Shown here: positions 7,985-60,437 of the stretch, piece after piece
Layout of the letters: every line of letters begins with the position of its first letter
Numbering within the stretch: position 1 is the stretch's first letter
Assembly: GCA_037447655.1 (NCBI GenBank)
Contig: JBBHKE010002117.1
Location: forward strand, 27,501-91,500
Reading direction: 5' to 3'
DNA from: Zygnema cylindricum
Taxonomy: Eukaryota > Streptophyta > Zygnematophyceae > Zygnematales > Zygnemataceae
Length of the DNA stretch: 64,000 nucleotides
Position numbers and translations under genes: made by a program
The notes under the pieces: model-generated
Seen by the model: the letters and a program-made list of their open reading frames with translations, nothing else
Told to the model about the DNA's origin: nothing
Databases searched by the model: none

Positions 7985-9035
7985 TGCAATTCTGTGTCCT
8001 CCATTGGACTACAGAATACAGGAAGCCTCTAGATAGTGTTTAACTAACCCACTTTAAGCCACGAACACTTCTGTCCAAGAAGGCAAATTGACAATTTGAC
8101 TGCACCCCTGTGCAGCCTGGACTCCCCTGAGTCCGTAGCAAAAAGAATCACTGAAAACGGCCAACCAACCGATAAGTTATAGGGTGGCAAAGATGCCAAT
8201 TTATACAAACTCTCAAAGAGAGAGGACTATCTACCTAAATTTTCCTAAGTCCTAGTTTTTCCTAATTCCCTCTCACAGCTCCTATCTACTGCCTGTACGA
8301 ACCAATCACAAAACTGTATAGTACTAGAAAGTACTACTGCCGATGTACTTTCTGTACGGCCTCTGTACGACAAGGCCATTAAGTGGACGCGTGTCCACTT
8401 TCCACTCGTCCGTACGTTCCTCGGAATTCCCGCGACCGAATGATGTCTTCCCACGTGGTGCTAGGTCATGCCACGTCAATAAATGCCAAAATGATCATTC
8501 CGGGATTTTGGCGATGATGCGCGCCGTTAGATTTGACGCGAAATTCAATCTCGACCGTAATAAATACTTGCGCGATATTTGTTTCGTTGTCGAAACAAAA
8601 TGCGCGATATCCATTTCAAACAAGTACAGTACTTCGTAATTTATAGAACTGTATCTATGTGTGGCGTTAAGGGTTTCAGTTAAATGAATCTAGTACATTA
8701 CAATAGTTTAAATAGTAATGAAACCCTATATCTCCTAACGGACTTCTACGACAGACTGGTTAGAGCTAACGGCTACGCCGCGCTCTGCCGGTCGGGGGTT
8801 CGAGTCCTGCCGGACTCAACCTTTTGTTGAGAGTGGCTTAAGCCACTCTTTAGTCCTTCCTATGGAGTTGAGGCAGCCATGGCTCCATTGCTCTCTCTCT
8901 CTCTCCTTCAGTGACTACAACAAGTATGGGGGCGAGAGAGAGAGAAGAGATAGAGGCAGGCTGCCTACATTTTCTTTTCATGTTTTCTAATAAATTTAGA
9001 CCTAGAAAATATACTAAAAACTACTTATTTCAACA
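7985..9035 (-). repeat. Copia A 3' LTR
   Basis: 1051 bp, TGTTG...TTGCA on the minus strand. It carries a TATA box (TATAAAT, complement of 8199-8205), the conserved ACTTGTTGTAGTCACT loop, the AGCCATGGCT palindrome at about 8876-8885, and an antisense tRNA-like unit at 8752-8825. A CGAAACAAA-type inverted repeat lies at about 8572-8605. Confidence 0.95.
8752..8825 (+). other. tRNA-like unit with Pol III boxes in the LTR
   Basis: Antisense to copia A. An A-box-like word TGGTTAGAGCT (8757-8767), a B box GGTTCGAGTCC that fits the GGTTCRANTCC consensus exactly (8797-8807), and a TTTT run (8822-8825) follow in Pol III order. The 5' and 3' acceptor strands do not pair as in a true tRNA, so this is tRNA-derived and not a working tRNA. 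Confidence 0.65.
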
Positions 9036-9048
9036 CTCCCCTTATTTT
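9036..9048 (-). promoter_or_regulatory. Polypurine tract of copia A
   Basis: AAAATAAGGGGAG on the minus strand, directly before the 3' LTR. The same 13 bases precede the 3' LTRs of C (30526-30538), D (28771-28783), E (complement of 40037-40049) and I (50644-50656). It primes plus-strand DNA synthesis. Confidence 0.9.
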
Positions 9049-9486
9049 CTAGTCTAATTTTAATTTTTCTTTTAAGCCACATTTTTCCCTACAATATTTT
9101 AACTTTGGAGAGGGCACAGGTTTTGTCATCATGTCAGCCACCATTTCCTCATCAGATCTATATACAAGATTCACTATTTTATTCTCCACTTTTTCTCTTA
9201 CAAAACTTAATCTTATGCCCATTTGTTTAGCCTTAAAATGATGTTTTGGATTGGTTGCAATTGCTATGGCTGCTTGATTATCACAAAAAACTTCATGCAC
9301 TCCCTCTTTCATACACCCCAGTTCTTGCAGTAAGGACTTGACCCACATCAACTCTTTCACAGCACAACAAGAGGCCATGTACTCAGCCTCCATAGTGGAC
9401 TGAGCAACCACCTTTTGTTGCTTACTGCTCCAACAGCAAGCACCTTCCCCAACATACAACACATACCCAGAAGTGCATCGTCTCAT
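9049..9486 (-). CDS. Copia A RNase H segment
   Basis: C-terminal RNase H of the copia polyprotein, which degrades the RNA template. The frame has the catalytic Glu in STMEAEYMA and Asp in FCDNQAAIAI, then the KHHFKAK and MVADMMTKPVPSPK tail typical of plant copia. The preceding part (TTWSDASYGD, with the first Asp) lies in the upstream frame; a single missing base at about 9486 separates the two. The stop falls 1 base before the polypurine tract. Confidence 0.9.
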   Translation of the reverse strand: MRRCTSGYVLYVGEGACCWSSKQQKVVAQSTMEAEYMASCCAVKELMWVKSLLQELGCMKEGVHEVFCDNQAAIAIATNPKHHFKAKQMGIRLSFVREKVENKIVNLVYRSDEEMVADMMTKPVPSPKLKYCREKCGLKEKLKLD

Positions 9487-10679
9487 AGGTCGTCCCCATA
9501 ACTGGCATCACTCCAAGTAGTGATGCCAGTGTGCTCCCCTCCCAAATGCAACCATAACTCTCTAGTTCCTACAAGATATCTCATGACTCTCTTGGCTGCC
9601 TCCCAATCCCTCTTCCTAGGATCATTAAGACTCCTACTGAGTACACTAACTGCCGCCGCTATGTCCGGCCTGGTACAATTCATAAAATAGATTAAGCTTC
9701 CTACGACCTGTCTATAAGGGATAGACTTCATGAACTCTCTCTCCTCTGGACTCATCTGATCGTCTAAGATCATCACTCCTCCTTCTACACTCCCATCACT
9801 TACTTTTTTCAAGTCCATGGGAGTGGTACAACTGTTAGCATTTTCCATCTGGAATTTCTCAAGCATATTACCTATTGCTTCTTCGTGAGTAAGTCTGATA
9901 ATCTTTTTCCCCCTATCTCTCTCCATTTGGATCCCCAAAATATATTTTGCCTCCCCTAAATCCTTCATATCAAATCTGCCCCTAAGATCTTTCTTTAGCC
10001 TATTGATATTCTCCAAAGACTTACTTAACACAAGCAGATCATCCACATAAATTGCAATAAAAATGACACCATTCTCATCTTCAAACATATAGATAGAATG
10101 GTCAGAGCTGATCCGGATGTATCCCAGATCGGTGAGAAACTCATCTAGTTTCTTATTCCACTGTCGGGGAGCCTGTTTCAGTCCATATAAGGACTTTATG
10201 AGCCTGCAGACTTTGCTCTCTTCTCCTTCTTCCACAAACCCCTCGGGTTGCCTCATAAAAATTTCTTCCTCTAACTCACCATTAAGAAAAGCAGTCTTAA
10301 TGTCCATCTGGTGTATTTCCATGTCTTCGGCTGCGGCCAGACTGAGGAGAATCCTTACCGATGGGAATCGAACAAGTGGAGCAAAGGTCTCCTCATAGTC
10401 AATCCCCTCTTTTTGGGTGAACCCCTTCGCTACCAATTGAGCCTTATACCTCTCAATTGTATTATCTGGGTTCAGTTTTAGTTTAAATACCCATTTATAT
10501 CTAATAGGTTTTCTGTCCGGAGGGCAATCCGCTAGTTCCCAAGTATTTGCTTCCATGATAGAAGCCATCTCATCATTTATGGCTATAATCCATCTTTCTT
10601 TCTCTGGACTATTCACTGCCTCTAAGTAAGACTGAGTCTCATCTGGGTGAGATAGCTTAGTTACCTTATGGGCAGCTTG
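9483..10679 (-). CDS. Copia A reverse transcriptase segment
   Basis: Copies element RNA into DNA in the particle. Starting after the stop at 10680-10682, the frame reads KVTKLSHPDE, then [83 protein letters not shown] and the catalytic YVDDLLVLS, followed by the connection MKDLGEAKYILGIQ and YRQVVGSLIYFMNCTRPD. All RT blocks are intact. It ends just after TTWSDASYGD because of a 1-base deletion. Confidence 0.95.
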   Translation of the reverse strand, partial: QAAHKVTKLSHPDETQSYLEAVNSPEKERWIIAINDEMASIMEANTWELADCPPDRKPIRYKWVFKLKLNPDNTIERYKAQLVAKGFTQKEGIDYEETFAPLVRFPSVRILLSLAAAEDMEIHQMDIKTAFLNGELEEEIFMRQPEGFVEEGEESKVCRLIKSLYGLKQAPRQWNKKLDEFLTDLGYIRISSDHSIYMFEDENGVIFIAIYVDDLLVLSKSLENINRLKKDLRGRFDMKDLGEAKYILGIQMERDRGKKIIRLTHEEAIGNMLEKFQMENANSCTTPMDLKKVSDGSVEGGVMILDDQMSPEEREFMKSIPYRQVVGSLIYFMNCTRPDIAAAVSVLSRSLNDPRKRDWEAAKRVMRYLVGTRELWLHLGGEHTGITTWSDASYGDDL

Positions 10680-13354: not shown

Positions 13355-13360
13355 CCTAGA

Positions 13361-13375: not shown

Positions 13376-14424
13376 TGCAATATTATGTCCTCCATTGGAC
13401 TACAGAATACAGGAAGCCTCTAGATAATGTTTAACTAACCCACTTTAAGCCACGATCACTTCTGTCCAAGAAGGCAAACTAGCAATTTGACTGCGTCCTT
13501 GTGCAGCTTGGACTCCCCTGAGTCTGTAGCAAAAAGAATCACTAAAAACGACCAACTAGCCGATAAGTTATAGGGTGGCAAAGATGCCAATTTATACAAA
13601 CTCTCAAAGAGAGAGGACTATCTACCTAAATTTTCCTAAGTCCTAGTTTTTCCTAATTCCCTCTCACAGCTCCTATCTACTGCCTGTACGAACCAATCAC
13701 AAAACTGTATAGTACTAGAAAGTACTACTGCCGATGTACTTTATGTACGGCCTCTGTACGACAAGGCCATTAAGTGGACGCGTGTCCACTTTCCACTCGT
13801 CCGTACGTTACTCGGAATTCCCGCGACCGAATGATGTCTTCCCACGTGGCGCTAGGTGATGCCATGTCACTAAATGCCAAAATGACCATTCCGGGATTTC
13901 GGCGATGATGTGCGCCGTTAGATTTGACGCGAAATTCAATCTCAGCCGTAATAAATACTTGCGCGATATTTGTTTCCATGTCGAAACAAAATGCGCGATA
14001 TCCATTTCAAACAAGTACAGTACTTCGTATTTTGTAGAACTGTATCTATGTGTGGCGTTAAGAGTTTCAGTTAAATAAATATAGTACATTACAATAGTTT
14101 AAATAGTAATGAAACCCTATATCTCCTAACAGACTTCTACGAAAGACTGGTTAGAGCTAACGGCTACGCCGCGCTCTGCCGGTCGGGGGTTCGAGTCCTG
14201 CCAGACTCAACCTTTTGTTGAGAGTGGCTTAAGCCACTCTTTAGTCCTTCCTATGGAGTTGAGGCAGCCATGGCTCTATTGCTCTCTCTCTCTCTCCTTC
14301 AGTGACTATAACAAGTATGGGGGCGAGAGAGAGAAGATATAGAGGCAGGCTGCCTACATTTTCTTTTAATGTTTTCTAATAAATTTAGACCTAGAAAATG
14401 TAATAAAAACTAATTATTTCAACA
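13376..14424 (-). repeat. Copia A 5' LTR
   Basis: 1049 bp, partner of 7985-9035. TATA box TATAAAT on the complement of 13590-13596 puts the U3/R boundary near 13560. U3 holds the GTAC-rich palindrome (13685-13765), the antisense tRNA-like unit (14143-14216) and the ACTTGTTATAGTCACT loop region (about 14299-14314). The outer neighbour is the duplicated CCTTA, then Gy1. Confidence 0.95.
14143..14216 (+). other. tRNA-like unit in copia A 5' LTR
   Basis: A-box-like TGGTTAGAGCT (14148-14158), B box GGTTCGAGTCC (14188-14198) and TTTT (14213-14216), antisense to the element. Same layout as 8752-8825. Confidence 0.65.
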
Positions 14425-14429
14425 CCTTA

Positions 14430-15049
14430 CGGTAAAATGCTCTTTCCACACACTAAACCCCATATTCAATCGGGTCCATGTGGCCATACCCAACAAAATT
14501 TCAAATTGCGTACCTTTAACCACAAAGAATGGGAGCTTGATTTGGACTCGTTGGTTGGCATCGTCGGAAACTTCAATTTCCATGGCTTTGATTATTCCAT
14601 GGACTGGCTGATTTCCGCTGCTGACTGTACTTAGACAGATGTTGCTCGGGTAGATTTCTGGCCGGAGTTCTTTTGGCATCTGCTGTAAGGCCGAGGTGGT
14701 GATGAGGTTTGGGAGTGCCCTTGTATCGACCACTGCGTCTTGATACCCGATGTATCCATTTTGCTTCAAATTTCTGGTCCGGTTCAGGATTAGAGCCAGC
14801 GACAATGCCTTATAATCATAGGCGTTTTTGGTTCTGCGGACAAAAAGACAGCGCTCGACAGTTTTTCCATGGCACCTTTCTCCCTTCCAAAGTGTATCTC
14901 CTCTCTTAAGCCTTGAATGAGGATCTCTTCAGGCAGATTGTGGGATGAGGCTAGAGTTTTGACGTGAGTGAGAGCGTAAGGCATGAGGTAACTTACTAAC
15001 ATAACATCCGCCTTGGAAGAAAGAGGTCAAGCTCTTGGTGATGAAATAT
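14430..15049 (-). pseudogene. Gy1 protease region
   Basis: The frame contains YQDAVVDTRALPNLITTSAL, matching Gy2 at 53438-53815. The retropepsin signature DTGA reads DTRA here and DTTA in Gy2. Downstream FEILLGMATWTRLNMG is conserved in both, the hydrophobic strand expected after the active site. Catalytic ability is doubtful. The frame is cut by copia A on the left. Confidence 0.75.
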
Positions 15050-15378
15050 GGAAAATCCTACCTTTAACTATTTAGATATTTATCAAACCCTATACGTACC
15101 AGTACTAGTCCTAGACTAAATGGACAATGCTAACGACTGCGGGATGTTTGACGGCCGGTAGGTACCGGGATCAATGCCTGGATCCGTCAAACATCTTTTT
15201 AGTAAACATATTTATCTACTCCTGTCTCTCTGAAGAGCTTAGGCAGCCATGGCTCTAGCTCCCTCTCCAGCCTTCAGTGACTACGACAAGTGTGGGGACT
15301 TGGAGAAGGGAGTCAGAGGCAGACTGCCTCTACCCTTTTCTATCTAATAAAGACCTAGAAAATACCCAAATATCAACA
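15050..15378 (-). repeat. Copia LTR fragment (family D/E type)
   Basis: Minus strand starts TGTTGATATTTGGGTATTTT at 15378 and keeps only the first 325 bp or so of an LTR. It retains GAGGCAGACTGCCTC, the ACTTGTCGTAGTCACT loop and the AGCCATGGCT palindrome. Antisense to it, a perfect 12-bp stem (GATGTTTGACGG 15143-15154 with 15184-15195) encloses a B-box-like GGGATCAATGCC and is followed at once by TTTTT (15196-15200). The left limit is approximate. Confidence 0.75.
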
Positions 15379-16320
15379 GTCCCTCTGACCCATTTTTTGC
15401 TTGTCCTTTCTTTGCTCCGAGGTAGAATTGCAGAGTTGTTGGCGGTTATCTCCCACCCCCACATTCCAGGCTCCGGACAAGAAGTGCGTGCATGGTGGGC
15501 ATTTGGGGGTTCCAAATCCTAGCCCATTAAGTCATCATCATTGTCACGCGCACTGTCTTGAAGTTCAAGCTCTGCAAGCTTTTCTAACAACTCCTGTTTC
15601 TGTTTTTGGAGTCTTTGTGGTGAAGTGAGAGGAGCGGGCCGAGATGAAGATCCTAAGCGGAGGACAAATAATTCTGTTGCCATTGCGGCCAATTGTTGAC
15701 TTTGCTGCTGAATGATTCTTTCCGCGGTGAGTGTTGGTGGAATAACTGGGGTGCGGTCAGGTTCCTCCAGTGTAGACAGTACACGGCGCCCCCAAGGGTA
15801 AAGGAGTTGAAGTGGGAGATGGTTTACGACAGTTTCCCCTTCTCCAATGAACATAGGGAACTACATCATTTCTTTCGGGACTCCATTCTTGCGGAAACAC
15901 TGTTCTTGTTGATGTCCCATGAAGTCGCAGGCTGCACACTTCGAGCCTCGGTAGTATATTTGCTCCTTAGGTCATTGGAGATTTGGGCATCATCGAATTT
16001 GGGAAGTTTAATTTGCCTCAGCTAAGATGGGGCCATTTTCGCGGTTTCTGCTCGAGAAGTAGGGCGGTAAGTTTCCTTGTTAACGGGTGCTTTCCTGTCC
16101 CCCCCTTCTCATTGTTTCCATTCTAGGTGCCTCCGAGTTCTTTCCGAACGCTATTTTTCAAATTCTTTTTCCTTGAAGGCGAACTCTTGTTTGAGTTTCT
16201 TGGGGCAGTGTTTCCACCCATGTTTTGTTTGTTGGCAATTGAGATAGTTGTAGCGGAAAACCCTGTCATCTGCCCCTATTGCGGGTTTTGACCCGCAATC
16301 AACCACCTATTTCCCTTTAA
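15379..16320 (-). pseudogene. Gy1 gag C-terminal region
   Basis: Two CCHC-type knuckles can be read on the minus strand: LNCQQTKHGWKHC at about 16195-16250 (first Cys lost) and CAACDFMGHQQEQC at about 15895-15940, matching CLNCQQTGHGWKHC and CEACGFMGHKEG in Gy2. Between and after them come IQQQSQQLAAMATEL and an acidic coiled-coil-like end (LQKQKQELLEKLAELELQD). Frameshifts separate the pieces. The N-terminus is missing beyond 16320. Confidence 0.8.
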
Positions 16321-16376
16321 TCTACGACAGACTAGTTAGAGCTAATGGCTACGCCGCTCTTTGCCGGTCGGAGGTT

Positions 16377-17840
16377 TGTCAAGCTTGTGTGTGTTTCCGG
16401 CACACCTTTATATTACCAAGGATTTTTAGACCCTTTTTAACTTGTACGGTCATCGGAGTACAAAAGAGTGAGCGCACCAAGCTGGACGAGATCATTGTAT
16501 TTACTAAACTTAGCAGTACACACTTTATTTAGCGCCTAACGGAGGCTGGACGACCAAGTTCTACCGTCTCAAAGATTGCATTTTCGTTACATGGGACTAG
16601 TTTCCGCCAGCCCTTGTGGGGAGTTCACTGTGGATGGCCATGTAACTTTTTGGATTGTTGTCTAGATTATGCTGTTAGCTGTCGATATGAATTCAGTTCA
16701 AGTTCAACTGACTTTCGGTCCATTAAGTACCTTAGGTCTAAGTCTAGCACTTTCGTGTCTTTTTCCAGTACTTTGTCTTATAATAGTGGGACGAATAATT
16801 ACTTCCGGCCGCGGATCTAGCCGCAATCAGGAGCATAAATTTTTACCTCAAAGTGTAGTGCGGATAATTTTGTCTTATGTCAGTTCAGTTACACTTGCTT
16901 GCCGCTCATTTGTTAATAACATGGCTTTGACTTTTGGACCTAAAATTGGACTAACTTTGATGTATAAGGCACTTAGGGCCGAAAGAGACAGTTTGCTTTT
17001 CAGTACTTTCTCATGTGAAAACCCTCAAAAAATTCCAAACAAACCTTCTTTTGGAGAATCTTTGTTTTGCTTGAGTGTTTGACTCTATTGCCATCTTGGT
17101 TTGGATTTGTCTTATCTGGAGGTCATAGTTCGGGCGGTTAGTCGGCACTTTTGGGCGATATTGACTTTTGCCATTTTGAAATTGAGAAGAGTCCAGTCGG
17201 TTCCGATATGCGGAAATCGAGGTGTGAAGGAGGATCGTACCGGTCATCGGTGCCAACGGAAGATATTTGGCCTTCTCTTTGTGTTTGCTTGGCTTTCCGG
17301 GTTATGTTGAGTTTGCTTTAATATCATTAGTAATTCTATCTTTTATTCCATTTTCTATGTCAAAGTGATATAGGTAAATCTGAAACAACCACTTCTTTTT
17401 ATTTTCGTTATTCTTGCGTGGAAGTTTATTTGGTCCTCTTTTGGAGTCCTTTTTGGCTTCGGTGGCGGTCCCGCCGGAAAAAACTGCTAGAATCTTTTGT
17501 ACCAGAACAGTGGGTTTTGAGGACACATTTGGCCGAATTTCAGCGGATCAACAAAATTGGGACCTCAACCCGATTACCCCAACACAAGCCCTTTTCTCGG
17601 ACCGATGGAAAAAAAAAAGGGGGAGGGGGGTATCTTTTTTCACCTTCCCATGCATTCCATCCCATTTCCTGTTCTATTTTCTCCTACGCCTTGCATGCAT
17701 GTCCACGGAAGGGATAAAGGGGAAATTGGGCATTCCCTCCAACACGGGAAGCATCCGCATTTGGGGTTATTTGTAGGACTCCAATGCACACTATTTTTGG
17801 CGGTGGGCCCTTCCCTTTTGTTTCCCAGGCATGCTCGACA
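16377..17840 (+). repeat. Solo Ty3/gypsy LTR
   Basis: 1464 bp, TGTCAAGC...CTCGACA, inserted in the tRNA-like part of copia B's 3' LTR. The B sequence reads GCCGGTCGGAGGTT on the left and GGTACGAGTCCTGCC on the right, which join to A's GCCGGTCGGGGGTTCGAGTCC with a 4-bp duplication (GGTT/GGTA). The last 340 bp are the inverted counterpart of 7216-7560 and 34326-34625. No body is present, so it is a product of LTR-LTR recombination. Open frames inside it are not credible genes. Confidence 0.75.
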
Positions 17841-18071
17841 GGTACGAGTCCTGCCAAACTCAACCTTTTGTTGAGAGTGACTTAGGTCACTCTTTAGTCC
17901 TGCCTATGGAGCTGAGGCAGTCATGGCTCGTCACTCTCTCTCTCCTTTAGTGACTACAACAAGTATGGGGGCAAGAGAAAAGGGATGGAGGCTGGCTGCC
18001 TGCACTTTTCTTATCTTTTTCCACTAACCTATTTAGACCTAGAAAATACCAAAAAACTAGTTTTTTCAACA
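17841..18071 (-). repeat. Copia B 3' LTR, inner part
   Basis: Starts TGTTGAAAAAACTAG at 18071 on the minus strand, following the usual polypurine tract, and runs to the solo gypsy LTR. The remainder continues at 16376-16321 and is then lost. It keeps the ACTTGTTGTAGTCACT loop and the B box. Confidence 0.85.
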
Positions 18072-20924: not shown

Positions 20925-21958
20925 TCTAGAAATTAAAGGCTATTTTAGTATTTTCTAGGTTGTGTAAAATGCAGAAAAAAAGCAGAGGCAGTCTGCTTCT
21001 AACTCCTCTCTCTAGCTCCTTCACTTGTCGCAGTCACTGAAAGTTTGAGAGGGAGATAGAGCCATAGCCGCCTATGCTATCCAGACAAGGACAGACTTTA
21101 GATTAGTAGATTTACCAAAATAGTTATTGATGGACCTAGGATTTGAACCTAGTAGCTACTGTCCGTCAAAAGTGCCTGTAGGCGGTAGCCTTAGCCAATT
21201 TGACTAGAATCAAGGTTATAAGATATTGGGTTTGATAATTAAATAAATCTTTACACGTAGGCTATTTCATTTAACGGGATATTTGGACATAGAAAGAGTT
21301 TGTTATGTAGCGCGTACGGAATAGTCGAAACGGATGCCGCGCAATTTGTTTCGAAGGCGAAACAAATATCGCGCAAGTATTTATGACGGCTACGATTGAA
21401 ATCCGTTTTAATGTGACTGCCGCGAAGCATGCCGAGATCGTGGAATAGTTTTTCGGCAGTTTGCGGTTAACGTCACATCAAATGACACGAGGTACAACCA
21501 TATTGGAATAGGGCATCTCCAAGGATTTCAGGATCGAATCCAAAAATGACATGTGTCGACTTATTGGCCATGTCTTACAATAGCCGTACAAAAAGTACAC
21601 CGACACCTGTACCTTTCTGTACAACACAGTATTATAATTGGTGCCGTATTTTAGTAGATAGAGTTTTAGAGATAGATAGGACTTAGAAAAATTTCATAGA
21701 TTGGACCCTCTCTCCCAGAGAGCTTTTGTACAATAGGTCAACTTTGACCGTTCATAACTTACTGCTCAGGGGAGCAAATTCAGAGATTGTTTTTGCTATC
21801 GACTCAAGGGAGTCTTGCTTTCACAAGGTTGAGGGTGGTCAGATTTTTGTCTGCAAGGGTGGTAGTTATTCTTGCTGAAACACAAAGAGGTCAGGGTTAT
21901 CCTAGAGGCTTTGTGTGAGCTGCCTACTCTGAGGACCTATGGAGGTCTCAAAGTTACA
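20925..21958 (+). repeat. Copia C 5' LTR
   Basis: 1034 bp, starting TCTAGAAATTAAAGG (TGT in the 3' copy) and ending AAAGTTACA. It shows GCAGAGGCAGTCTGCTTC, the ACTTGTCGCAGTCACT loop (about 21025-21040), the CGCGCAATTTGTTTCG/CGAAACAAAT inverted repeat (about 21335-21376) and a GTAC cluster at 21583-21650. The TATA position is eroded (TTGTACAATAG). Confidence 0.9.
21117..21214 (-). other. tRNA-like unit in copia C 5' LTR
   Basis: Antisense to C. B box GGTTCAAATCC (complement of 21139-21149), exact consensus, sits in a CTAGG/CCTAG stem with the 7-base loop TTCAAAT, as in a tRNA T-arm. It is enclosed by TTGACGGAC pairing with GTCCATCAA and followed by TTTT (complement of 21117-21120). Upstream, TTGGCTAAGGCTACC resembles a D-arm/A box. 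Confidence 0.65.
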
Positions 21959-25650: not shown

Positions 25651-26824
25651 TGTTGATATTTGAGTATTTTCTAGGTCTTTATAGAAAAAGAGCAAAGGCA
25701 GTTTGTCCCTAACTCCCTTCTCCAAGCCCCCACACTTGTTGTAGTCACTGAAGGCTTGATAGGGAGCTAGAGCCATGGCTGCCTAAAGCTCATTAGAGAA
25801 GACATGGGGTGGATTAGATCTATTTACTAAAAGTTAGTTGCCGGACCCAGGAATTGATCCTGGTACCTGCCGTCCGCCAATTTCACATAGACGTTAGCTC
25901 TGACCGTTAGGCTAGGACACATATTACGATATATTAGATTTGGTAAATATATAAATCGTTACATGTAGATTAATTCGTTTAACAGCGAATAGATACTTAG
26001 TGCATAGATACAGTTTGAATTAGTGCGTAGTACGGTACGCGGACAGAACGGATATCGCGCATTTGTTTCGATAGCGAAACAAATACCGCGCGTCGAATTT
26101 CAGCGGCTAGGATTATAGCCGGTTTTGATCGGACGGCCGCTATAGGCGCCGCGATCACGGAAAAGGTACTTTTGGCGTTTTACAGTATTTGACACGTCAG
26201 ATGACACGTGGCATGATAACATTGGATTACGGTGATTCCGAAGATTACAGGAACTAATCCTGATTTGACACGTGTCGACAATTTGGCCATGTCGTACAAT
26301 GGCCGTACAGAAAGTACACCGGCACCTGTACTTTTCTGTACGACACAGTAATTTGATTGGTGCCGTACTTCAGTAAATAGAGTTTTAGAGAGGGAATAGG
26401 ACTTAGAAAATTTTGGGTAGATTGCTGCCTCTCCCAGAGAGCACCTTGTATAAATGGCAAACTTTGGCCAGCCATAACTATCAATTTACTTGACCATTTT
26501 CAATGATTCTTTTTGCTGCTGACTCAAGGGAGTCTAGGCTACACAGGGGTGTAGTCGGTCAGAGTTTTTGTATGCCAGGGTGGCTGCATTTATAAGGGAA
26601 AGTCAAAGTGGGTGAATGTGTCTAAATCTCATATTCTAACTTTGCATTCTGTGGTGGAACTGAGCACACAGAAATTGTTATTTCACAGGGGTGAATCTAT
26701 ATTGGGATTGTGACTGTCAAGGGGTCAGTCATTTGGGTTTATATTAACTTGGAGTCGGCACTATCTAGATTAGCTTCTTTTGGATCTGCATACTCTGAGG
26801 GCTAATGGAGGTCTCAGAGTTTCA
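25651..26824 (+). repeat. Copia D 5' LTR
   Basis: 1174 bp, TGTTGATATT...GAGTTTCA. TATA box TATAAAT at 26449-26455. U3 carries the ACTTGTTGTAGTCACT loop, the AGCCATGGCT palindrome at about 25770, the CGCGCATTTGTTTCG/CGAAACAAAT hairpin (26056-26092) and a GTAC palindrome (about 26286-26345). The Gag ATG at 26805 lies inside the LTR end. Confidence 0.95.
25829..25920 (-). other. tRNA-like unit in copia D 5' LTR
   Basis: Antisense to D: D-arm-like TAGCCTAACGGTCAGAGC (complement of 25897-25914), B box GGATCAATTCC (complement of 25850-25860; one change from consensus) in a CCAGG/CCTGG stem with a 7-base loop, then TTTT (complement of 25829-25832). Confidence 0.65.
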
Positions 26825-28783: not shown

Positions 28784-29958
28784 TGTTGATATTTGAGTAT
28801 TTTCTAGGTCTTTATAGAAAAAGAGCAAAGGCAGTCTGTCCCTAACTCCCTTCTCCAAGCCCCCACACTTGTTGTAGTCACTAAAGGCTTGATAGGGAGC
28901 TAGAGCCATGGCTGCCTAAAGCTCATTAGAGAAGACATGGGGTGGATTAGATTTATTTACTAAAAGTTAGTTGCCGGACCCAGGAATTGATCCTGGTACC
29001 TGCCGTCCGCCAATTTCACATAGACGTTAGCTCTGACCGTTAGGCTAGGACACATATTACGATATATTAGATTTGGTAAATATATAAATCGTTACATGTA
29101 GATTAATTCGTTTAACGGCGAATAGATACTTAGTGCATGGATACAGTTTGAATTAGTGCATAGTACGGTACGCGGACAAAACGGGTATCGCGCATTTGTT
29201 TCGATAGCGAAACAAATACCGCGCGTCGAATTTCAGCGGCTAGGATTATAGCCGGTTTTGATCGGACGGCCGCTATAGGCGCCGCGATCACGGAAAAGGT
29301 ACTTTTGGCGTTTTACAGTATTTGACACGTCAGATGACACGTGGCATGATAACATTGGATTACGGGGATTCCGAAGATTACAGGAACTAATCCTGATTTG
29401 ACACGTGTCGACATTTTGGCCATGTCGTACAATGGCCGTACACAAAAGTACACCGGCACCTGTACTTTTCTGTACGACACAGTAATTTGATTGATGCCGT
29501 ACTTCAGTAGATAGAGTTTTAGAGAGGGAATAGGACTTAGAAAATTTTGGGTAGATTGCTGCCTCTCCCAGAGAGCACCTTGTATAAATGGCAAATTTTG
29601 GCCAGCCATAACTATCAATTTACTTGACCATTTTCAGTGATTCTTTTTGCTGCCGACTCAGGGGAGTTCAAGCTACACAGGGGTGTAGTCGGTCAGTGTT
29701 TTTGTCTACCAGGGTGGCTGCATTTATAAGGGAAAGTCAAAGTGGGTGAATGTGTCCAAATCTTATATTCTAATTTTGCATTCTGTGGTGGAATTGAGCA
29801 CATAAAAAGTGTTATTTCATAGGGGTGAATCTATATTGGGATTGTGACTTTCAAAGGGTCAGTCATTTGGGTTTATATTAACTTGGAGTTGGCAATATCT
29901 AGATTAGCTTCTTTTGGATCTGCATACTCTGAGGGCTAATGGAGGTCTCAGAGTTTCA
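28784..29958 (+). repeat. Copia D 3' LTR
   Basis: 1175 bp, matching the 5' LTR with few differences. It repeats all U3 modules and also carries the LTR-borne ATG near 29939, which after insertion points out into copia C. Confidence 0.95.
28962..29053 (-). other. tRNA-like unit in copia D 3' LTR
   Basis: B box GGATCAATTCC (complement of 28983-28993), then TTTT (complement of 28962-28965). Same as the 5' copy. Confidence 0.6.
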
Positions 29959-30538: not shown

Positions 30539-32634
30539 TGTAGAAATTAAAGGCTATTTTAGTATTTTTTAGGTTGTGTAAAATGCTGAAAGAAGCAGAG
30601 GCAGTCTGCCTCTACCTCCTCTCTCCAACTCCCACACTTGGTGCAGTCACTAAAAGTTGGAGAGGGAGATAGAGCCATGGCCGCCTATGTTATCCAGACG
30701 GGGACAGACTCTAGATTGGTAGATTTACCAAAATGACGGACCCAGGATTTGAACTTGGTACCTACCATCCGTCAAAGTCGCCTGTAGCCGGTAGCTTTAG
30801 CCAATTAGACTAGAATCAAGGTTAAGATATAGGGTTTGATAATTAAATAAATCTTTATACGTAGGCTATTTCATTTAATGGGATATTTGGACATAGAAAC
30901 AGTTTGTTATGTACGGCTTACGGAATAGTCGAAACGGATACCGCGCAATTTGTTTCGAAGACGAAATATATATCGCGCAAGTATTTATGATGGCTACGAT
31001 TGAAATCCGTTTTAATCGGACGGCCGCGAAGCATACTGAGATTTGGAATAATTTTTTGGCGGTTTGCGGTCAACGTCACATCAAATGACACGTGGCACAA
31101 CCATATTGGAATACAACATCTCCAAGGATTTCAAATCGAATCTTAAAATGACATGTGACGACTTATTGGCCATGTCGTACAATGGCCGTACAGAAAGTAC
31201 ACCGACACCTGTACCTTTTTGTACGCTAAAGTATTATGATTGGTGCCGTACTTCAGTAGATAGAGTTTTAGAGAGAGATAGGACTTACAAAAAATTTATA
31301 GATTTGACCCACTCTCCCAGAGAGCTTCTATACAAAAGGTCAACTTTGACCCTTCATAACTTACTGCTCAGGGGAGCAAATTCAAAGATTCTTTTTTCTA
31401 TCGACTTAGGGGAGTCTTCCCTTCACAGGGGTGAAGATGTTCAGAGTTTTTGTCTTCCAGGGTGGTAGTTTTTGTTCATAGCCATTTTCAGCCATGGATT
31501 TACCCTCGGAAGCACCATAGACTACCCCAAAACAGCCCACTTTGATTCCACTCAGAAATCTTCAGAATAACCAAACCAAGATAAAACTACTCAAAAAGAT
31601 ATTTCTTAGGCCACTTAGTATTCCCACCAATTTTCATATAACAATACCAAACTGAATTATCACAACACGCAGTCAAAGTTGCACAAAAACAGCTTGCCAG
31701 AACTTTGATAAATCTGACCAACTTCGCAATGAAGCCCCTAGCAAATCAGAAAAACAATAGGTCTGAAAATTTGCCACAATATCTCCAATAAAAATTGGAA
31801 CACAAATGCAAATTTTCAGATAATTTTGCCAGTAGAACTGAGAGAAATTCTCAGATGAAATTCCCAAAATAGTGCAAAAACAGTTTCTGTCCAAGAAGGT
31901 TCCTTAGTCTAAAAATGACTAAGTCCTACAAATATACACTACAGCTTACTACTAACTGTACGGAGGTATACCAGCCGTACGTAATAAATCAACTACCTCA
32001 ATTAATGTGAGTGTACCTGAGATCTACATTAATAATTAATACACAAGAGAAAACATTGCTAAATATTTACAAGTCTTACGAATTGCGTCAAACGAATCTG
32101 GACTGTCCAAAATAAATATCATGTGATGGATGCGATTTCGCGTCCCTCACCAAACTGACGGCGTCGCCGTCTGTAGCTCTTATTTGGCACCCTTGATGTC
32201 GTGAAGCATAATCACCAAAATCCACTTGGCGAAATGATATCACTCCATCCAAATTAGTCCGTACCGGCGACGTACTTCTTCAAAAACATTCCAGATCGGA
32301 TCGCTTCACGATCCGCCGTACATTTACATATTCTGTACCTTTCCTTACGTTTTGTTCGCGCCACTCAAATAATAACGTACATCCCAAAACAATTAGTACC
32401 ATTACTCCCCCAATTCCCAAATCAATTCGAACCTCCACAGTAAATCAAGATAGCATTAGAGTAGCGTACTGTACCCAAGAAACATTGTGTACGCACGAAA
32501 CGACACGCATGCACGAAACTAACTTTTCAAACCAACTGTAGTTATTCTTGCTGAAACACAAAAGGGTCAGGGTTATCCTAGAGGCTTCGTGTGAGCTGCC
32601 TACTCTGAGGACCTATGGAGGTCTCACAGTTACA
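30539..32634 (+). repeat. Copia C 3' LTR, interrupted
   Basis: TGTAGAAATTAAAGG...CACAGTTACA. Without the insert at 31470-32537 it is about 1.02 kb and matches 20925-21958. The antisense tRNA-like segment is at about 30728-30815, with AGTTCAAATCC as a slightly changed B box. The ACTTGGTGCAGTCACT loop sits in a stem CTCTCTCCAACT/AGTTGGAGAGGG. Confidence 0.9.
31470..32537 (-). repeat. Solo LTR, family L
   Basis: 1068 bp with 5-bp duplication GTAGT (31465-31469 and 32538-32542), placed exactly where the C 5' LTR reads GGTGGTAGTTATTCTTGC. On the minus strand it runs AGTTGGTTTG...GAACAAAA, a worn TG...CA. It is related to 48938-50245: both have a TTTCGTGCATGCGTG-like start and a GGCGGATCG...CGATYCGAT segment. 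No coding region. Confidence 0.8.
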
Positions 32635-34140: not shown

Positions 34141-34325
34141 TGCAATTCTGTTTCCTCCATTGGACTACAGAATTAAGGAAGCCTCTAGATAGTTTTTAAC
34201 TACCCCACTTCAAGCCACAACCACTGTTGCCCAAGAAGGCAAACTGACAGTGTGAATGCATCCTTGTGGAGCTTGGACTCTCATGAGTCGGTTGCAAAAA
34301 GAATCACTGAAAATGGCCAACCAGC
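34141..34325 (-). repeat. Copia B 5' LTR, truncated
   Basis: Only the last 185 bp remain (TGCAATTCTG... on the plus strand). It matches 13376 onward of copia A. It ends abruptly at AACCAGC, where the Gy2 LTR begins. Confidence 0.85.
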
Positions 34326-38726: not shown

Positions 38727-40036
38727 TGAAATTCTATCGGCTCTATTTCCTTACAGAATTCGCAGGTCCAAAGGAAGCTAATCTAGATATTGCTGACTCC
38801 AAGTTTATATAAACCCAAATGATTAACCCCTTGACAATCAAAACCCCATTACAGCTTCACCCTGTGAAGTAAGACTTTGTGTGTACTCAGTTCCAACACA
38901 GAATGCAAAGTTAGAATATGAGATTTGGACACATTCACCCACTTTGAATTTCCCTTAGAAATGCAGCCACCTTGGCAGGCAAAAACTCTGACTGACCATA
39001 CCCCTGTGTAGCTTGGACACTCTTGAGTCCGCAACAACAAGAATCACTAAAAATGGTCAAGTAAATTAATTGTTATGGCTCGCCAAAGTTTGCCTTTTAT
39101 ACAGATGCTCTCTGGGAGAGAGGTGGCTACCTACCCGAAATATTCTAAGTCCTAAACCCCTCTCTAAACCCTCTAGTACTGAGGTAGGGACCAATCACAT
39201 TACTGCATAGTACATAAAGGTACAGGTGTCGGTGTACCTTTTGTACGACCATCGTACGACATGGCTAAAATGTCAACACATGTCTTATCCTGATTCGCTC
39301 TTATAATCTGCGGAATTCCTACCTCCAAATCTTATCTCTCCACGTGGCGCCATGTCATGCCATGTCAAGAAAACGGTACGAGACAAGAAAGTACAGGTGC
39401 CGGTTTACTTTCTATACGGACATTGTACGATATTGCCATAATGTGACATTTGTCACATCCGGATTTGTTGTGTTCCGTTCCAGATATTCCGCAACCTGTA
39501 TCATGTCACTACGTGTCATCCGAAGTGGTGACGTCCGCAAACCGCCAAATTATCCTTTCCGCGAAATCGGCGTTAACCATGGCCGTCCGATTTATATCGT
39601 CATTTATTACGGACTGTCGAAACAAATGTCTGTACTATATATTTCGTCCGGTACTAAAAGTACAATTGTTTCTATGTCCTATGTAGCGTAATCCAGTTAA
39701 ATGAAAAACCCTACATGTAACTATTTAAATTCCTATCAAACCCTATATGTCACAGCACTAGTCCTAGACTATATGGATAAGGCTAACGGCTACAGGTGAC
39801 TTGACGGACGGCAGGTTCCAAGATCAATTCATGGGTCCGTCAAGTACCTTTTGGTAAGTCTACCCACTTTTCCCACTGTCTTCTCTTGAGAGCTTAGGTA
39901 GCCATGGCTCTTGCTCCCTCTCCAGTCTTTAGTGACTACAACAAGTGTGGGGGCTTAGAGAAGGGAGTTAGAGGCAGAATGCCTCTGCTCTTTTCCCATC
40001 CTAAATAAAGACCTAGAAAATACTCAAAATACAACA
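38727..40036 (-). repeat. Copia E 3' LTR
   Basis: 1310 bp. Starts TGTTGTATTTTGAGTATTTT on the minus strand, after polypurine AAAATAAGGGGAG (complement of 40037-40049). Contains a duplicated GTAC/CATGTCA-rich block (39240-39450), which makes it longer than the D LTR. Confidence 0.9.
39775..39852 (+). other. tRNA-like hairpin in copia E 3' LTR
   Basis: Antisense to E. Perfect 10-bp stem CTTGACGGAC (39800-39809) with GTCCGTCAAG (39835-39844) around a degenerate B box AGATCAATTCA, upstream GGCTAACGGCTAC, then TTTT at 39849-39852. Confidence 0.6.
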
Positions 40037-40071
40037 CTCCCCTTATTTTCTAGTCTATTTCCCTTTATTTC

Positions 40072-42387: not shown

Positions 42388-42795
42388 CACTTGAAATTAT
42401 ATGGGCTCCATTGCCACACAAAATTCGCAGGTCCAAAGGAAGCTAATCTAGATAGTACCGACTCCAAGTTTATATAAACCTAAATGATTGACCCCTTGAC
42501 AATCAAAACCCCATTACAGCTTCACCCTTGTGAAGTAAGATTTTCTGTGTGCTCAGTTCCACCACAGAATGCAAAGTTAGAATATGAGATTTGGACACAT
42601 TCACCCACTTTGAATTTCCCTTAGAAATGCAGCCACCCAGGTAAGCAAAAACTCTAACCGACTACACGATTGTTTAGCGTGGACTCTCTTTAGTCCGCAG
42701 CAACAAGAATCACTGAAAATGGTCAAGTAAATTAATTGTTATGGCTCCCCAAATTTTGCCTTTTATACAGATGCTCTCTAGGAGAGAGGTGGCTA

Positions 42796-43297
42796 CACCG
42801 CGCATCGTAATTAGAGTAATGAAAAAATTAGAGTAAAAAAAGAGAAAAAAATAATTAGAGTAATTTACTCTGATTTATGCGATAGAGCTATTTCAAAAAG
42901 GAATTTACTCTAATTTATGCGGTGTACTCTAATTTGGCAAGTTAATATCCTCTACTGTAAATAAGGTATTTGTACAGAATCTCACAAAACGTACAGTTTA
43001 TCGTCACTATGACATTCGCACTACGCTTTTTGTTAAAACGCGGTTACATGATAATGGCCTGTATTAAATCATTTATTTGTACTTTTTTACTTATAAAAGT
43101 ACAACTTTGCACGGTCGGACGTCGTCCGTATTCCACACTATTTAAAACGAACATATATTAGAATTAAAAACGCTAATTAAACCTTACCTAAATTAGAATA
43201 ATGAAAAAATTAGAATCGATTACTCTATTTGATATGATAGAGTCAAAATTTCGAGCGACCGAATTAGAGTATTTTACTCTAATTACGATTCGCGGTG
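42796..43297. mobile_element. MITE family I, copy 2 (TA-flanked)
   Basis: 502 bp inside the E 5' LTR. The 3' LTR of E has GTGGCTACCTACCCG where this LTR has GTGGCTA-element-TATCTACCCG, giving an empty-site comparison with TA duplicated. Ends CACCGCGCATCGTAATTAGA and inverted CACCGCGAATCGTAATTAGA. The core CACACTATTTAAA and AAAAGTACAACTTTG match copies 1 and 3. Confidence 0.92.
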
Positions 43298-43970
43298 TAT
43301 CTACCCGAAATATTCTAAGTCCGAAAACCCTCTCTAACCCCTCTAGTACTGAGGTAGGGACCAATCGCATTACTGTATAGTACATAAAGGTATAGGTGCC
43401 GGTGTACCTTTTGTACGACCATCGTAAGACATGGCTAAAATGTCAACACATGTCTTATCATGATTCGCTCTCATAATCTTCGGAATTTCTGCCTCCAAAT
43501 CCTATCTCTCCACGTGGCGCCATGTCATGCCATGTCAAGAAAACGGTACCTGACAAGAAAGAACATGTTCCAGAGTACTTTGTGTACGGACATTGTACGA
43601 TATTGCCATAATGTGACATTTGTCACATCCGGATTTGTTATGTTTTGTTCCGAAGATTTCGCAACCTGTATGAAGTCACCACGTGTCATCCGGAGTGGTG
43701 ACGTTCGCCAAACCGCCAAATTATCCTTTCTGCGAAACCGGCGCTAACCATGGCCGTCCGATTTATATCGTCATTTAATACGGACCGTCGAAACAAATGT
43801 CCGTACTATTTGTTTCGTTCGGTAGTAAAAGTACAATTATTCCTATATCCTATATAGCGTAATCCAGTTAAATGAAAAACCCTACATGTAACTATTTAAA
43901 TTCCTTACAAATCCTATATGTCATAGCACTAGTCCTACACCAAATGGATAAGGCAATCAACTACGGGTGA

Positions 43971-44015
43971 CTTGACGGACGGCAAGTTCCAAGATCAATT
44001 CCTGGGTCCGTCAAG
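43971..44015 (+). other. tRNA-like hairpin in copia E 5' LTR
   Basis: CTTGACGGAC (43971-43980) pairs perfectly with GTCCGTCAAG (44006-44015) around AGATCAATTCCTGG. Only three T residues follow, so the Pol III terminator is weaker here. Confidence 0.55.
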
Positions 44016-44367
44016 TTCCTTTGGTAAGTCTATTCACTTTTCCTCTTGTCTTCTCTAGAGAGCTTAGGAAGCTATGGCTCTAGCTCCCTCTCCAGCCTTG
44101 AGTGACTATTACAAGTGTGGGGGCTTAGATGAAGGAGTCAGAGGCAGACTCCCTCTGCTCTTTTCTATCCTAAATAAAGACTTAGAAAATACTCAAATAT
44201 CAACAGTTTTTGGACACGCCGACACTGGATGACACGTGGCAGCATCCTGGAGGATTGTGCAATCTCCAGAACGCAAGATGACAAATTCGGATGGGACAAT
44301 TGTCACCATTATAGACATGCCGTACAGGTACTATACAAAAAGTACTCCGGCACGTGTACTTTCTTGT

Positions 44368-45367
44368 AGTTGGAATTAAAAGTTTTTCTTATGTGTTTTC
44401 TCGGTTTCTTAGGTAATTTAAAATGAGGAAAGATAAGCAGAGGCAGTCTGCTTGTAACTCCTCTCTTTAGCCCCCATACTTGTCGTAGTCACTAGAGGCT
44501 GAAGAAGAAGTTAGAGCCATGGCTGCCTATGCTTCTCGTAGAGTGAGAAGGCAGTCCTTTGTTAAACTTACCAAAAAGGTTAACGGACCCAGGATTTGAT
44601 CCTGTTACCTATCGTCCGTTTGAATAGCCCAGCGTCGTTACCATATAGCCTAGCACCTGTGTCAAAATATATAAGGTACGATAGCTACTTAAAGATGTGC
44701 AAATAGGAAAGTTCATTTAACTCACGAACGGACCACAATCACATAGACATAGTTAGATAAAATCACATCGAAATGTACTATTTATATTTTAAACAGCTAT
44801 AAATTAACGCTGATATCAATTGGACAGCGGAGGAAGAAGCCGACATCACGGAAAAGACGATTTGGCGGTTTGCGGTCGCAGCCACGCCGGGTGACACGTG
44901 GCAACATGACATTGGATGGCGTCATCTCCGAGACATACCATGACGAACTTGGATATAGCAGGCGTCGCCTTCTTGGCCATGTCATACAATGGCCGTACAG
45001 AAAGTACTCCGGGCCAAGTACCTTTTTGTACTGTACACTGAATTAATTGGCTCCGTACTTCAGTAGTAGAGGGATAAGAGAGGGGTTCAGGACTTAGAAA
45101 ATAATAGGTAGCAGCCTCTCACCTAGAGCTTATCTGTATAAAAGGTCATCTTTGACCATTGATTATTAATTGCTTAGGGGATTAATTTCTTGGATTTATT
45201 TTGTGGCAGACTTAGGGGAGTCAGCTCTTTCAAGGGGTACAATTTGGTCAGTCTGTATTCTGTCAGGGTGTCTCAAATACTCATACAAAGACTAAAGGAT
45301 CGAGATTATCCTAGAGGCTTTTGGTAAGCTGCCTACTCTAAGTACCAATGGAGGTCTCAGAGTTGCA
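44368..45367 (+). repeat. Copia I 5' LTR
   Basis: 1000 bp. TATA box TATAAAAG at 45137-45144. Contains the ACTTGTCGTAGTCACT loop (about 44478-44493), AGCCATGGCT at 44515-44524 and a GTAC cluster at 44990-45060. The Gag ATG at 45348 is inside the LTR. Confidence 0.93.
44573..44660 (-). other. tRNA-like unit in copia I 5' LTR
   Basis: B box GGATCAAATCC (complement of 44592-44602), stem AACGGAC/GTCCGTT, and TTTTT (complement of 44573-44577). D-arm-like TAGGCTATATGGTAACG upstream on the minus strand. The matching 3' LTR unit is at 50861-50946. Confidence 0.65.
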
Positions 45368-50656: not shown

Positions 50657-51654
50657 TGTTGAAATTAAAAAAAAATCTTATGTATTTTCTAGGTTTTTTA
50701 AGTAATCTAAAATGAGGAAATATAAGCAAAGGCACTTGCTTCTAATTTCTCTCTCTAGCCCCCATACTTGTCGTAGTCACTAGAGGCAGAAAAAGAAGTT
50801 AGACCCATGGCTGCCTATGCTTCTCTTAGAATCAAAAGGTAATCCTTTGTTAAACTTACCAAAAAGGTTAACGGACCCAGGATTTGATCCTGGTACGTAC
50901 CGTTTGTCTGAATAGCCAAGCGTCATTACCATATAGCCAAGCACTTGTGTCGAAGTATATAAAGTACGATAGCTACTTAAAGATGTGCAAATAGGAAAGT
51001 TCATTTAACTCACGAACGGACCACAATCACATAGACATATTTCGATAGAATCACATCGAAATCAACTATATATATTTTAAACGGCTATAAATTAAGGCTG
51101 ATATCAATCGGACGGCGGAGGAAGAAGCCGACATCACGGAATGGAAGATTTGGCGGTTTGTGGTCGCAGCCATGCTGGGTGACACGTGGCAATATGACAT
51201 TGGATGGCGGCATCTCTAGGACATCCATGACGAACTCAGATATGGCAGGCGTCGCCTTCTTGGCCATGTTGTACAATGGCCGTACAAAAAGTACTTCGGG
51301 CCAAGTACCTTTCTGTATTGTACACTGAATTAATTTGCTCCGTACTTCAGTAATAGAGGGATAAGAGAGGGGTTCATGACTTTGAAAATAATATGTAGCA
51401 GCCTCTCTCCTAGAGCGCATCTGTATAAAAGGTCATCTTTGATCATTGATTATTAACTGCTCAGGGGAGAAATTTCCAGGATTCATTTTGTGGCAGACTC
51501 AAGGGAGTCAGCTCTTTTATGGGGTGCAATTTGGTCAGTCTGTATTTTGTAAGGGTGTCATAAATAATCATATAAAGACTAAGGGATTGAGGTTATCCTA
51601 GAGGCTTGAGGTAAGCTGCCTACTTTGAGTACCAATGGATGTCTCACAGTTGCA
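50657..51654 (+). repeat. Copia I 3' LTR
   Basis: 998 bp, TGTTGAAATT...CACAGTTGCA. Its antisense tRNA-like unit (50861-50946) has B box GGATCAAATCC at the complement of 50880-50890 and TTTTT at the complement of 50861-50865. Confidence 0.93.
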
Positions 51655-58640: not shown

Positions 58641-58684
58641 TTTAACATGTATTTACTAAGATTTTACACCCATTTTATTTTGCA

Positions 58685-58852
58685 TGTCTAATCTTGAAGC
58701 CATCCTAAGTAGGAAGTATTGAAGGGTCGGGGATTGGTGGGTGAGATCGACGTGTGTCACAGATATGTAAATAGCAACCAGTTGACTGGAAGTATTCCAA
58801 TGTCCATTAGACAACTCAAATCTATTAAAAAAATGTAAGACATATGACACTA
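58685..58852 (+). pseudogene. LRR-protein gene fragment
   Basis: Plus strand, two frames: MSNLEAILSRKY at about 58685-58720, then after a shift LKGRGLVGEI and YVNSNQLTGSIPMSIRQLKS (about 58725-58840). This has the plant extracellular LRR pattern LxxNxLxGxIPxxIxxLxxL found in receptor-like kinases and receptor-like proteins. Only about two repeats remain, with at least one frameshift and a stop right after. It is the only host-gene-like sequence in the window, and could be a decayed gene, a processed fragment or sequence carried by a transposon. Confidence 0.6.
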
Positions 58853-58869
58853 TGTACACTATGGTCATA

Positions 58870-59539: not shown

Positions 59540-59581
59540 ATTCCCCTCTTATTGTCAGAATCGCCAAACTCTTCAAAATAA

Positions 59582-60045
59582 TCAAAGTTTTGGTCGCCCC
59601 CTCTTAAATACATCATGCGTAGCTGCTTTCGTCATCAAATCTACCGCCTCCTCTTTTGTTGGTACGTACGAAAATACAATCTCGTTCGCCGTAACCAAAT
59701 CTCTTACAAAATGCCATTGGATCCTGATGTGTTTCGTCCTCTTGTGAAACACTGGATTTTTCGCCAACGCCATCCAATTCCTTCCTGCAAAGGAGAGACA
59801 CCTTCCGGTACCTTCATATATACCTCTTCCTCCAACTCACCATTTAAAAACGCGGTTTCAACGTCCATTTGATGGGCGTGCTTTTTCCCCATCGCTCGAG
59901 TGCGATAATAATCCGTGGTGAGTCGAACTTCACCACGGGAGCATAAGTCTTCTTAAAATCGATTCCCTCACGTTGTTGGAACCCCTTACAAACAAGCCTC
60001 CCCTTGTACTTAATTATTTCACCCGACGCTCCAGTTTCTGTACTT
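59582..60045 (-). pseudogene. Copia K RT-RNase H deletion relic
   Basis: Minus strand: GEIIKYKGRLVCKGFQQREG, KTYAPVVKFDSPRIIIAL, HQMDVETAFLNGELEEEVYM, then after a large deletion the RNase H end NPVFHKRTKHIRIQWHFVRD and VFSYVPTKEEAVDLMTKA. The YVDD box is lost. It is a different copia lineage from A-J (its own polypurine tract and motifs). It is cut at about 60045 by an LTR fragment. Confidence 0.8.
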
Positions 60046-60437
60046 TTACACTACTATATCTATGTATCCCGTTAACAGTTATAGTTAAATGATTTATCCT
60101 ACGTGTACATGTTTAAATCATTATCGTACTATATACTATGTAAGACTACTTCTAGACTTAACGGCTAAGGCTACCGGCTATCTACTCTCTGACGGCCGGC
60201 AGGTACCAGGATCAAATCCTGTCGCCGGCACATACCTTTTAGTAATTAATCCCTTGACTAATATAAATTTCCCGTAAACCTCAGGATAGCCTAGGTAGCC
60301 ATGGCTCTAGCTTCCTCTCCAATTTCTCAGTGACTGCGACAAGTTTGAGAGTTGGAGAGAGAAGTTAGAGGTAGACTGCCTCGGCTTCTTTATTTCTATT
60401 CAGACCTAGAAAATACTTAAAAACCATTAATTTCTCA
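60046..60437 (-). repeat. Copia LTR fragment before J
   Basis: The minus strand starts TGAGAAATTAATGG at 60437 and keeps TATTTTCTAGGTC, GAGGCAGTCTACCTC, the ACTTGTCGCAGTCACT loop and AGCCATGGCT (60298-60307). An antisense tRNA-like unit has B box GGATCAAATCC (60209-60219) within GCCGGC/GCCGGC and TTTT at 60237-60240. It is truncated at both sides, and its insertion cut off the 5' end of J. Confidence 0.75.

Follow-up and report, generated by a model that had tools for sequence, protein, structure and literature searches.

Why do the long terminal repeats (LTRs) of several related copia retrotransposons in Zygnema cylindricum (Zygnematophyceae) carry, on the strand opposite to the element, a word that resembles the B box of an RNA polymerase III (Pol III) promoter, and does this word mark a working gene or the remains of an older one? 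The LTRs in question lie in a 64,000-nucleotide stretch of DNA (assembly GCA_037447655.1, contig JBBHKE010002117.1, positions 27,501 to 91,500 of the forward strand; hereafter the window, numbered from its first letter), which is filled by nested copia elements whose LTRs are about 1 kb or longer. On balance, the best reading is that a module derived from a transfer RNA (tRNA) gene or from a short interspersed element (SINE) came to lie antisense in the U3 region of an ancestral LTR, and has been inherited and is decaying. An earlier note on this DNA had offered such a fusion as its alternative to an RNA transcribed by Pol III from each LTR; of the two it is the better supported, as tRNA-likeness is found on the antisense strand and not on the sense strand.

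A B-box-like word lies antisense to U3 in 12 LTR copies, which stem from seven insertions; in every copy it stands about 200-230 bp into the LTR, counted from its start. In eight insert-free LTRs a TATA-like word was found, with the unit 540-730 bp upstream of it; no such word was found in D3. The copies, together with the two pieces of an interrupted one, are as follows.

8745..8832, plus strand: unit A3 (3' LTR of insertion A), B box 8797-8807 GGTTCGAGTCC, TTTT 14 bases after it; the most tRNA-like copy
14136..14223, plus strand: unit A5 (5' LTR of A), B box 14188-14198
15114..15203, plus strand: unit f15, B box at 15168 with one mismatch, A box 7/8
16321..16376, plus strand: first piece of the unit in the 3' LTR of C, A-box side up to GGTT, 91% identical to A over 56 bases
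17841..17900, plus strand: second piece of the C unit, GGTACGAGTCC (one mismatch) and CCTTTTG
21114..21206, minus strand: unit D5, B box 21149-21139, A box TAGTCAAATTGG 8/8
25825..25915, minus strand: unit E5, B box 25860-25850, A box TAGCCTAACGG 8/8
28958..29048, minus strand: unit E3, B box 28993-28983, A box 8/8
30720..30812, minus strand: unit D3, B box 30755-30745 with one mismatch, A box 8/8
39767..39856, plus strand: unit F (3' LTR), B box 9/11, outer stem 11/12 pairs
43938..44026, plus strand: unit G (5' LTR), B box 10/11, TTT only at the terminator place
44567..44655, minus strand: unit I5, B box 44602-44592
50855..50943, minus strand: unit I3, B box 50890-50880, outer stem 5/10 pairs
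60155..60244, plus strand: unit f60, B box 60209-60219

Exact matches to GGWTCRANTCC number nine in the window, compared with 0.53 expected, and none of 100 shuffles reaches nine. Eight of these stand at the homologous place of an LTR on the strand opposite to the element (A3, A5, D5, E5, E3, I5, I3 and f60), and the ninth (21531, plus strand) lies elsewhere within the D5 LTR. At the homologous place, the word carries one mismatch in D3, G, f15 and C and two in F; if one mismatch is allowed throughout the window, the excess is far less striking (24 matches against 14.2 expected, with 2 of 100 shuffles reaching 24). The form GGTTC is confined to A3, A5 and D5, the other copies having GGATC, AGTTC or AGATC. 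A run of TTTT or longer begins 22-29 bases past the start of the B box in 11 of the 12 copies; G has TTT at this place and its first TTTT at +46. The antisense B box and the T-run behind it, both reported in the earlier note, are therefore real features of these LTRs. A sequence model of the unit found no copy outside LTRs in the 64-kb window (13 matches, the thirteenth being a piece of C's LTR). In the A family, two inverted repeats, CTCAACCTTTTGTTGAG and AGAGTGGCTTAAGCCACTCT, lie just downstream of the B box (8815-8849 and 14206-14240, plus strand); a version of them is present in C, and not in the other families compared.

The strand that carries the B box is also the one that resembles a tRNA. 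Similarity was scored by comparison with a panel of 23 tRNAs, using dinucleotide shuffles as the control. The antisense consensus of the unit reached a mean score of 22.2, compared with 18.4 (standard deviation 1.0) for shuffled sequence, and none of 150 shuffles attained it; the sense consensus scored 19.1 against 18.9 (P 0.40). Antisense outscored sense in all 12 units, and each of the ten copies tried singly had a mean score with P <=0.05. When 6388 positions and strands across the window were scanned, the two copies in A ranked first and second among non-overlapping places, and 11 of the 12 units fell in the top 2%, with f60 at 6.9% and the C pieces at 5 and 12%.

The A box is preserved to a much smaller extent. 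It is complete (8/8) in D5, D3, E5 and E3, which is 4 of 12 copies, and reaches 7/8 in I3 and f15; the remaining six (A3, A5, F, G, I5 and f60) have 6/8, a level that 57-93% of shuffles equal. The earlier statement that an A-box word precedes the B box in most copies does not hold, since the full word is kept in two of the seven insertions, D and E. There it stands 54-57 bases ahead of the B box, so that the two boxes occur at tRNA spacing in D and E and in degraded form in the others.

Programs that recognize tRNA genes gave little response. ARAGORN at its default settings reported no tRNA in the whole window, the Rfam tRNA model had no match in the window at its gathering score, and at a relaxed E value it had none in five units (A3, f60, D3, F and E5); an active tRNA gene was rejected on these results. 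One unit, A3, matched the tRNA-like mascRNA family of Rfam at 14 bits (E 2.1). With relaxed settings (-ps50), ARAGORN drew a cloverleaf in 9 of 12 units and at least one match in 179 of 480 shuffles (206 matches), and with the extra option -ss it did so in 4 of 12 units (the shuffle run was made without -ss), which amounts to a mild excess in related copies; it speaks slightly for tRNA-likeness and is not proof of a cloverleaf. The unit had no related DNA among viral contigs; three distant loci in bacterial assemblies (41-42% identity) were not used further. A T-arm copied from the half-tRNA primer of reverse transcription was also rejected: the primer-binding site (PBS) presumably pairs with the anticodon arm of such a primer, so the T-arm would not be copied.

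These data bear on the proposal that an ordinary segment of the ancestral U3 drifted by chance to a B-box-like word that is now shared only through descent. The B boxes are not independent of one another, as the copies represent one homologous site, and the chance-level A-box matches in 6 of 12 copies and the lack of an Rfam tRNA match in the five units are also as this proposal predicts; it does not readily account for the joint likeness to A and B boxes in D and E or for a tRNA score that is specific to one strand, and we regard it as rather unlikely.

If the unit were a functional gene, one might expect it to be better preserved than its surroundings. Mean identity is 0.68 in the LTR flanks (281 columns) and 0.68 in the unit core, with 0.72 in the columns of the T-arm-like stem and loop plus outer stem and 0.62 across all 163 columns of the unit alignment; Fitch changes per column number 1.48 in the 281 flank columns compared with 1.89 in 139 unit columns. 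Taken as a whole, the unit is thus under no extra constraint relative to its flanks, contrary to the earlier impression that the rest of the LTRs had diverged around it. A-box columns are not more conserved than flanks (P 0.46-0.67), B-box columns are not more conserved than contiguous flank blocks (P 0.11), and the T4 columns give P values of 0.07 (against random flank columns) and 0.17.

A working antisense Pol III gene in each LTR, composed of A box, B box and T-run and producing a short RNA that would oppose or regulate U3 or the 3' end of the element's RNA, is unlikely in the light of this comparison. Such a gene would fit the exact B box in 8 of 12 copies, the T-run of four or more in place in 11 of 12, the intact A box of D and E, and the P values of B-box and T4 columns against random flank columns; it is at odds with the A box at chance in half of the copies, with the imperfect B boxes of F, G, D3 and f15 and the lost T-run of G, with conservation of the whole unit no better than that of the flanks, and with double changes in the stem that fall inside a neutral null (see below). 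Pol III gene function may be possible for E and D. An improbable but more far-reaching version would have autonomous copia elements domesticate an antisense tRNA-derived Pol III promoter in U3; the young copies E and D would still make a short antisense RNA or recruit TFIIIC, and would in this way adjust how they are themselves transcribed by Pol II or silenced.

A second reason to suspect an RNA had been the stem that encloses the B box. All of the outer stems quoted earlier exist, although the one assigned to E, CTTGACGGAC/GTCCGTCAAG, belongs here to the LTR pair at 39.8 and 44.0 kb (F/G); I5 has AACGGAC/GTCCGTT, and the stem of f15 (15.1 kb) comprises 12 bp. The A family lacks the outer stem, with 3 of 11 pairs among positions that have letters on both sides. 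Over 12 rows, 69.9% of cells are paired in the outer stem (12 pairs) and 91.1% in the T-stem. In register, 76% of all cells are paired, compared with 27-46% once the 3' partners are slid by 1-3 columns; among 500 column shuffles, none attains the observed number of double-change cells and two attain the covariation score, but these controls ignore relatedness or how the stem was chosen.

The 12 copies are not independent, because A3/A5, E5/E3, I5/I3 and F/G are the LTR pairs of single insertions, each flanked by a 5-bp target duplication. The insertions and fragments are listed here.

7985-9036 and 13376-14425: LTRs of insertion A, element on the minus strand, 5-bp target duplication
Broken LTR of insertion C, split at the B box by another element
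20925 on and 30539-31476: LTRs of insertion D, with E nested inside, paired by layout and 89% identity only
25651-26824 and 28784-29958: LTRs of insertion E, 5-bp target duplication
38727-40037 (F, 3') and 42392-44209 (G, 5'): LTRs of insertion F/G, element on the minus strand, 5-bp target duplication
44369 on and 50657 on: LTRs of insertion I, 5-bp target duplication
About 15048-15383, minus strand: LTR fragment f15
About 60050-60440, minus strand: LTR fragment f60

For a neutral null, columns were simulated one by one, with no structure imposed, on a tree derived from the flanks. For the T-stem plus ten outer pairs, the paired fraction was 0.78 compared with 0.65 under this null (P 0.019), and the double-change cells numbered 7 compared with 3.9 (P 0.15); three subsets with one copy per insertion gave P 0.006-0.013 for paired fraction and 0.205-0.233 for double changes. 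The paired fraction of both stems is thus modestly high, at P values (0.006-0.019) that are uncorrected for stem choice and flattering, because the stem was picked from the same sequences, and the double changes in all sets that include the outer stem lie within the null (P 0.13-0.30). Three of the five double-change pairs differ within the LTR pair of one element (D5 U-A and D3 C-G; I5 A-U and I3 G-U; A5 U-A and A3 U-G), so at least one change in each of these three arose after insertion; one of them, columns 76/104, also shows an independent C-G in f60. Among 3617 possible 10-bp helices in the unit alignment, the outer stem (0.72) ranked fourth, and without the A rows it was second, behind its own one-step extension; the LTR flanks contain helices that pair at 0.87. 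The flank helix with this value spans columns 74-121 of that alignment, within the initial part of the LTRs (it was not mapped base by base), and probably reflects pyrimidine-rich and purine-rich tracts of U3.

Folding gave an uneven picture. RNAalifold predicted no pairs on 12 rows and, on 10 rows without A, seven pairs, of which two have double changes. Of ten copies folded individually, E5, F, G and f15 were more stable than shuffles on both strands (z of -3.2 to -3.5 antisense, -2.2 to -3.8 sense), and the antisense z was only -1.3 to -0.15 in A3, D5, D3 and I5; the best antisense folds of E5 and f60 differ from the reported outer stem. U3 is contained in the 3' part of the genomic RNA, and the palindrome could in principle serve as a hairpin in the sense RNA or as a factor-bound DNA site, its likeness to a B box being incidental. 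The two-strand stability of four copies, the in-register pairing and column-shuffle results, and the excess of paired fraction over the neutral tree are in keeping with such a signal, which we nevertheless consider distinctly unlikely given the weak folds of A3, D5, D3 and I5, the different best folds of E5 and f60, the RNAalifold result, the better-pairing flank helices and the confinement of tRNA-likeness to one strand. Nor do covariation and a retained terminator support a Pol III RNA from each LTR, as had been proposed: the double changes lie within the neutral null, better helices occur in the flanks, and the A box is mostly eroded. In sum, the B boxes, T-runs and quoted stems of the original description stand, and its diverged surroundings, widespread A box, outer stem in A and intact C do not.

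We return to the proposed origin from a tRNA or SINE. The U3 of a common copia ancestor would have held, antisense to the element, a module of this kind (a SINE head or a tRNA-gene fragment), which the seven insertions with a measurable unit, plus C, would have inherited along with the rest of the LTR. It would now be decaying, the T-arm and B-box part remaining recognizable throughout, the A box kept whole in D and E alone, and no tRNA model matching the full unit. The enclosing stem would be inherited sequence and not a maintained RNA, a stable antisense transcript is unlikely, and at most the B box of young copies may still attract TFIIIC weakly. A module of this kind, inherited and eroding, would account for the homologous position of the units, their strand-specific tRNA-likeness, the loss of the A box and the absence of extra constraint on the whole unit; from these observations we infer the tRNA or SINE origin, the residual factor binding and the single ancestral event.

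Several points weigh against this reading. When the best single tRNA is used in place of the mean, P exceeds 0.05 in three of ten copies (D3 0.06, E5 0.08, f15 0.10), and much of the tRNA score stems from the B box that first drew attention. The tRNA scan is suggestive and not specific, because two places outside the units (10341, minus strand; 21781, plus strand) also score high. The nearest isotype varies by family (Ile for A; Arg for F and G; initiator Met, or iMet, for I5, E5 and f60; Gln for D3; Gly for f15), so a single tRNA source is not upheld. B-box columns are somewhat better conserved than flank columns drawn at random (P 0.026, ten informative columns), which may leave room for a live B box. 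Finally, the analysis saw neither an LTR with an empty site nor a SINE tail or target duplication left by the original insertion.

The elements that carry the unit have features of autonomous copia retrotransposons. Insertion A, for example, spans about 6.4 kb and has reading frames for gag, integrase and reverse transcriptase. Among the 120 listed of 7010 relatives of the reverse transcriptase, few have an organism named; most of those are flowering plants, and a fungus and a mite also occur. A gag search gave two weak matches. The polypurine tract meets the LTR start as AAATAAGGGGAG followed by TGTTG. Directly at the LTR end lies a PBS-like GGTTATGGGCCC (26825 and 45368, plus strand; 34140, minus strand), which we take to be the complement of the anticodon arm of iMet. 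E, I and C have an ATG some 20 bases ahead of the LTR end (MEVSELQVMGPPSRVP-like) that is in frame with gag across the PBS, so the primer site is apparently translated; D5 and A5 have the same ATG with the frame broken later (sites at 26805-26840, 45348 and 21939, plus strand, and 34160 and 13395, minus strand). At 60440, f60 (minus strand) adjoins a copia internal region on the plus strand that is 80% similar to that of D (60040-64000), and this junction is composite because the two parts lie on opposite strands.

Copy C, previously counted among the carriers, is not intact: its LTR is interrupted at the B box by an element at 16377-17840 (minus strand) whose ends read TGTCGAGC and GCTTGACA; GGTT/GGTA may be its 4-bp duplication. 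What might be taken for a free-standing SINE copy at 16326-16376 was rejected as the other piece of C's LTR unit. The repeat that begins near TGTCGAGC has copies at 16377-17840 (minus), from 34325 on (plus) and from 7210 on (plus), and the copy at 34325 adjoins a truncated copia LTR. One insertion at one B box is no evidence of targeting.

LTRs that resemble part of a tRNA have been reported from Repbase (PMC10886601). The nearest precedent is provided by the Helenus and Cassandra terminal-repeat retrotransposons in miniature (TRIMs), although these are short and non-autonomous. Helenus TRIMs are described as 311-1263 bp long with a tRNA-like A/B-box region inside their LTRs, for which mostly no functional tRNA is predicted and an origin from a SINE in an LTR is proposed; many fungal families have a PBS matching the iMet anticodon loop and are mobilized by copia (Kojima, 2024; PMC10886601). 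The elements studied here share with them a tRNA-like sequence in both LTRs (A, D, E, F/G and I), its derivation from a tRNA being our inference. Unlike Helenus, with its conserved TRGCY..YGG A box and GGTTC B box, they have a complete A box in few copies and GGTTC in the three named above; they carry gag-pol reading frames at a length such as that of A; and their module is antisense to the element, a word that does not occur in the available text of PMC10886601. The units are therefore not Helenus, because their elements carry gag-pol and have mostly lost the A box; at most, their action would resemble that of the promoter modules in those TRIMs. Cassandra also has a Pol III promoter module within its LTR, but it is non-autonomous, its module is 5S-derived, and transcription of the module is reported (as described in PMC10886601). 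The PBS-like GGTTATGGGCCC at the LTR end fits the half-tRNA-Met-primed Ty1/copia elements Osser, Bryco and part of Gymco-II, for which the available portion of PMC6317226 mentions no tRNA-like LTR module. A search of open-licence papers brought up no account of a tRNA-like module lying antisense in the LTRs of autonomous copia elements.

In this consulted literature, tRNA-derived Pol III modules in LTRs have been worked out only for short non-autonomous elements. As a relic, the unit described here is mainly a caution that the palindromes and B boxes of related LTRs can mimic covariation through shared descent and post-insertion decay. If the proposed origin is true, a tRNA-like antisense module in gag-pol copia LTRs would reveal how LTRs come by such modules. 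It would also qualify the argument of PMC10886601 that a long stretch of such LTR sequence is unlikely to be shared by autonomous partners, which should lack these modules.

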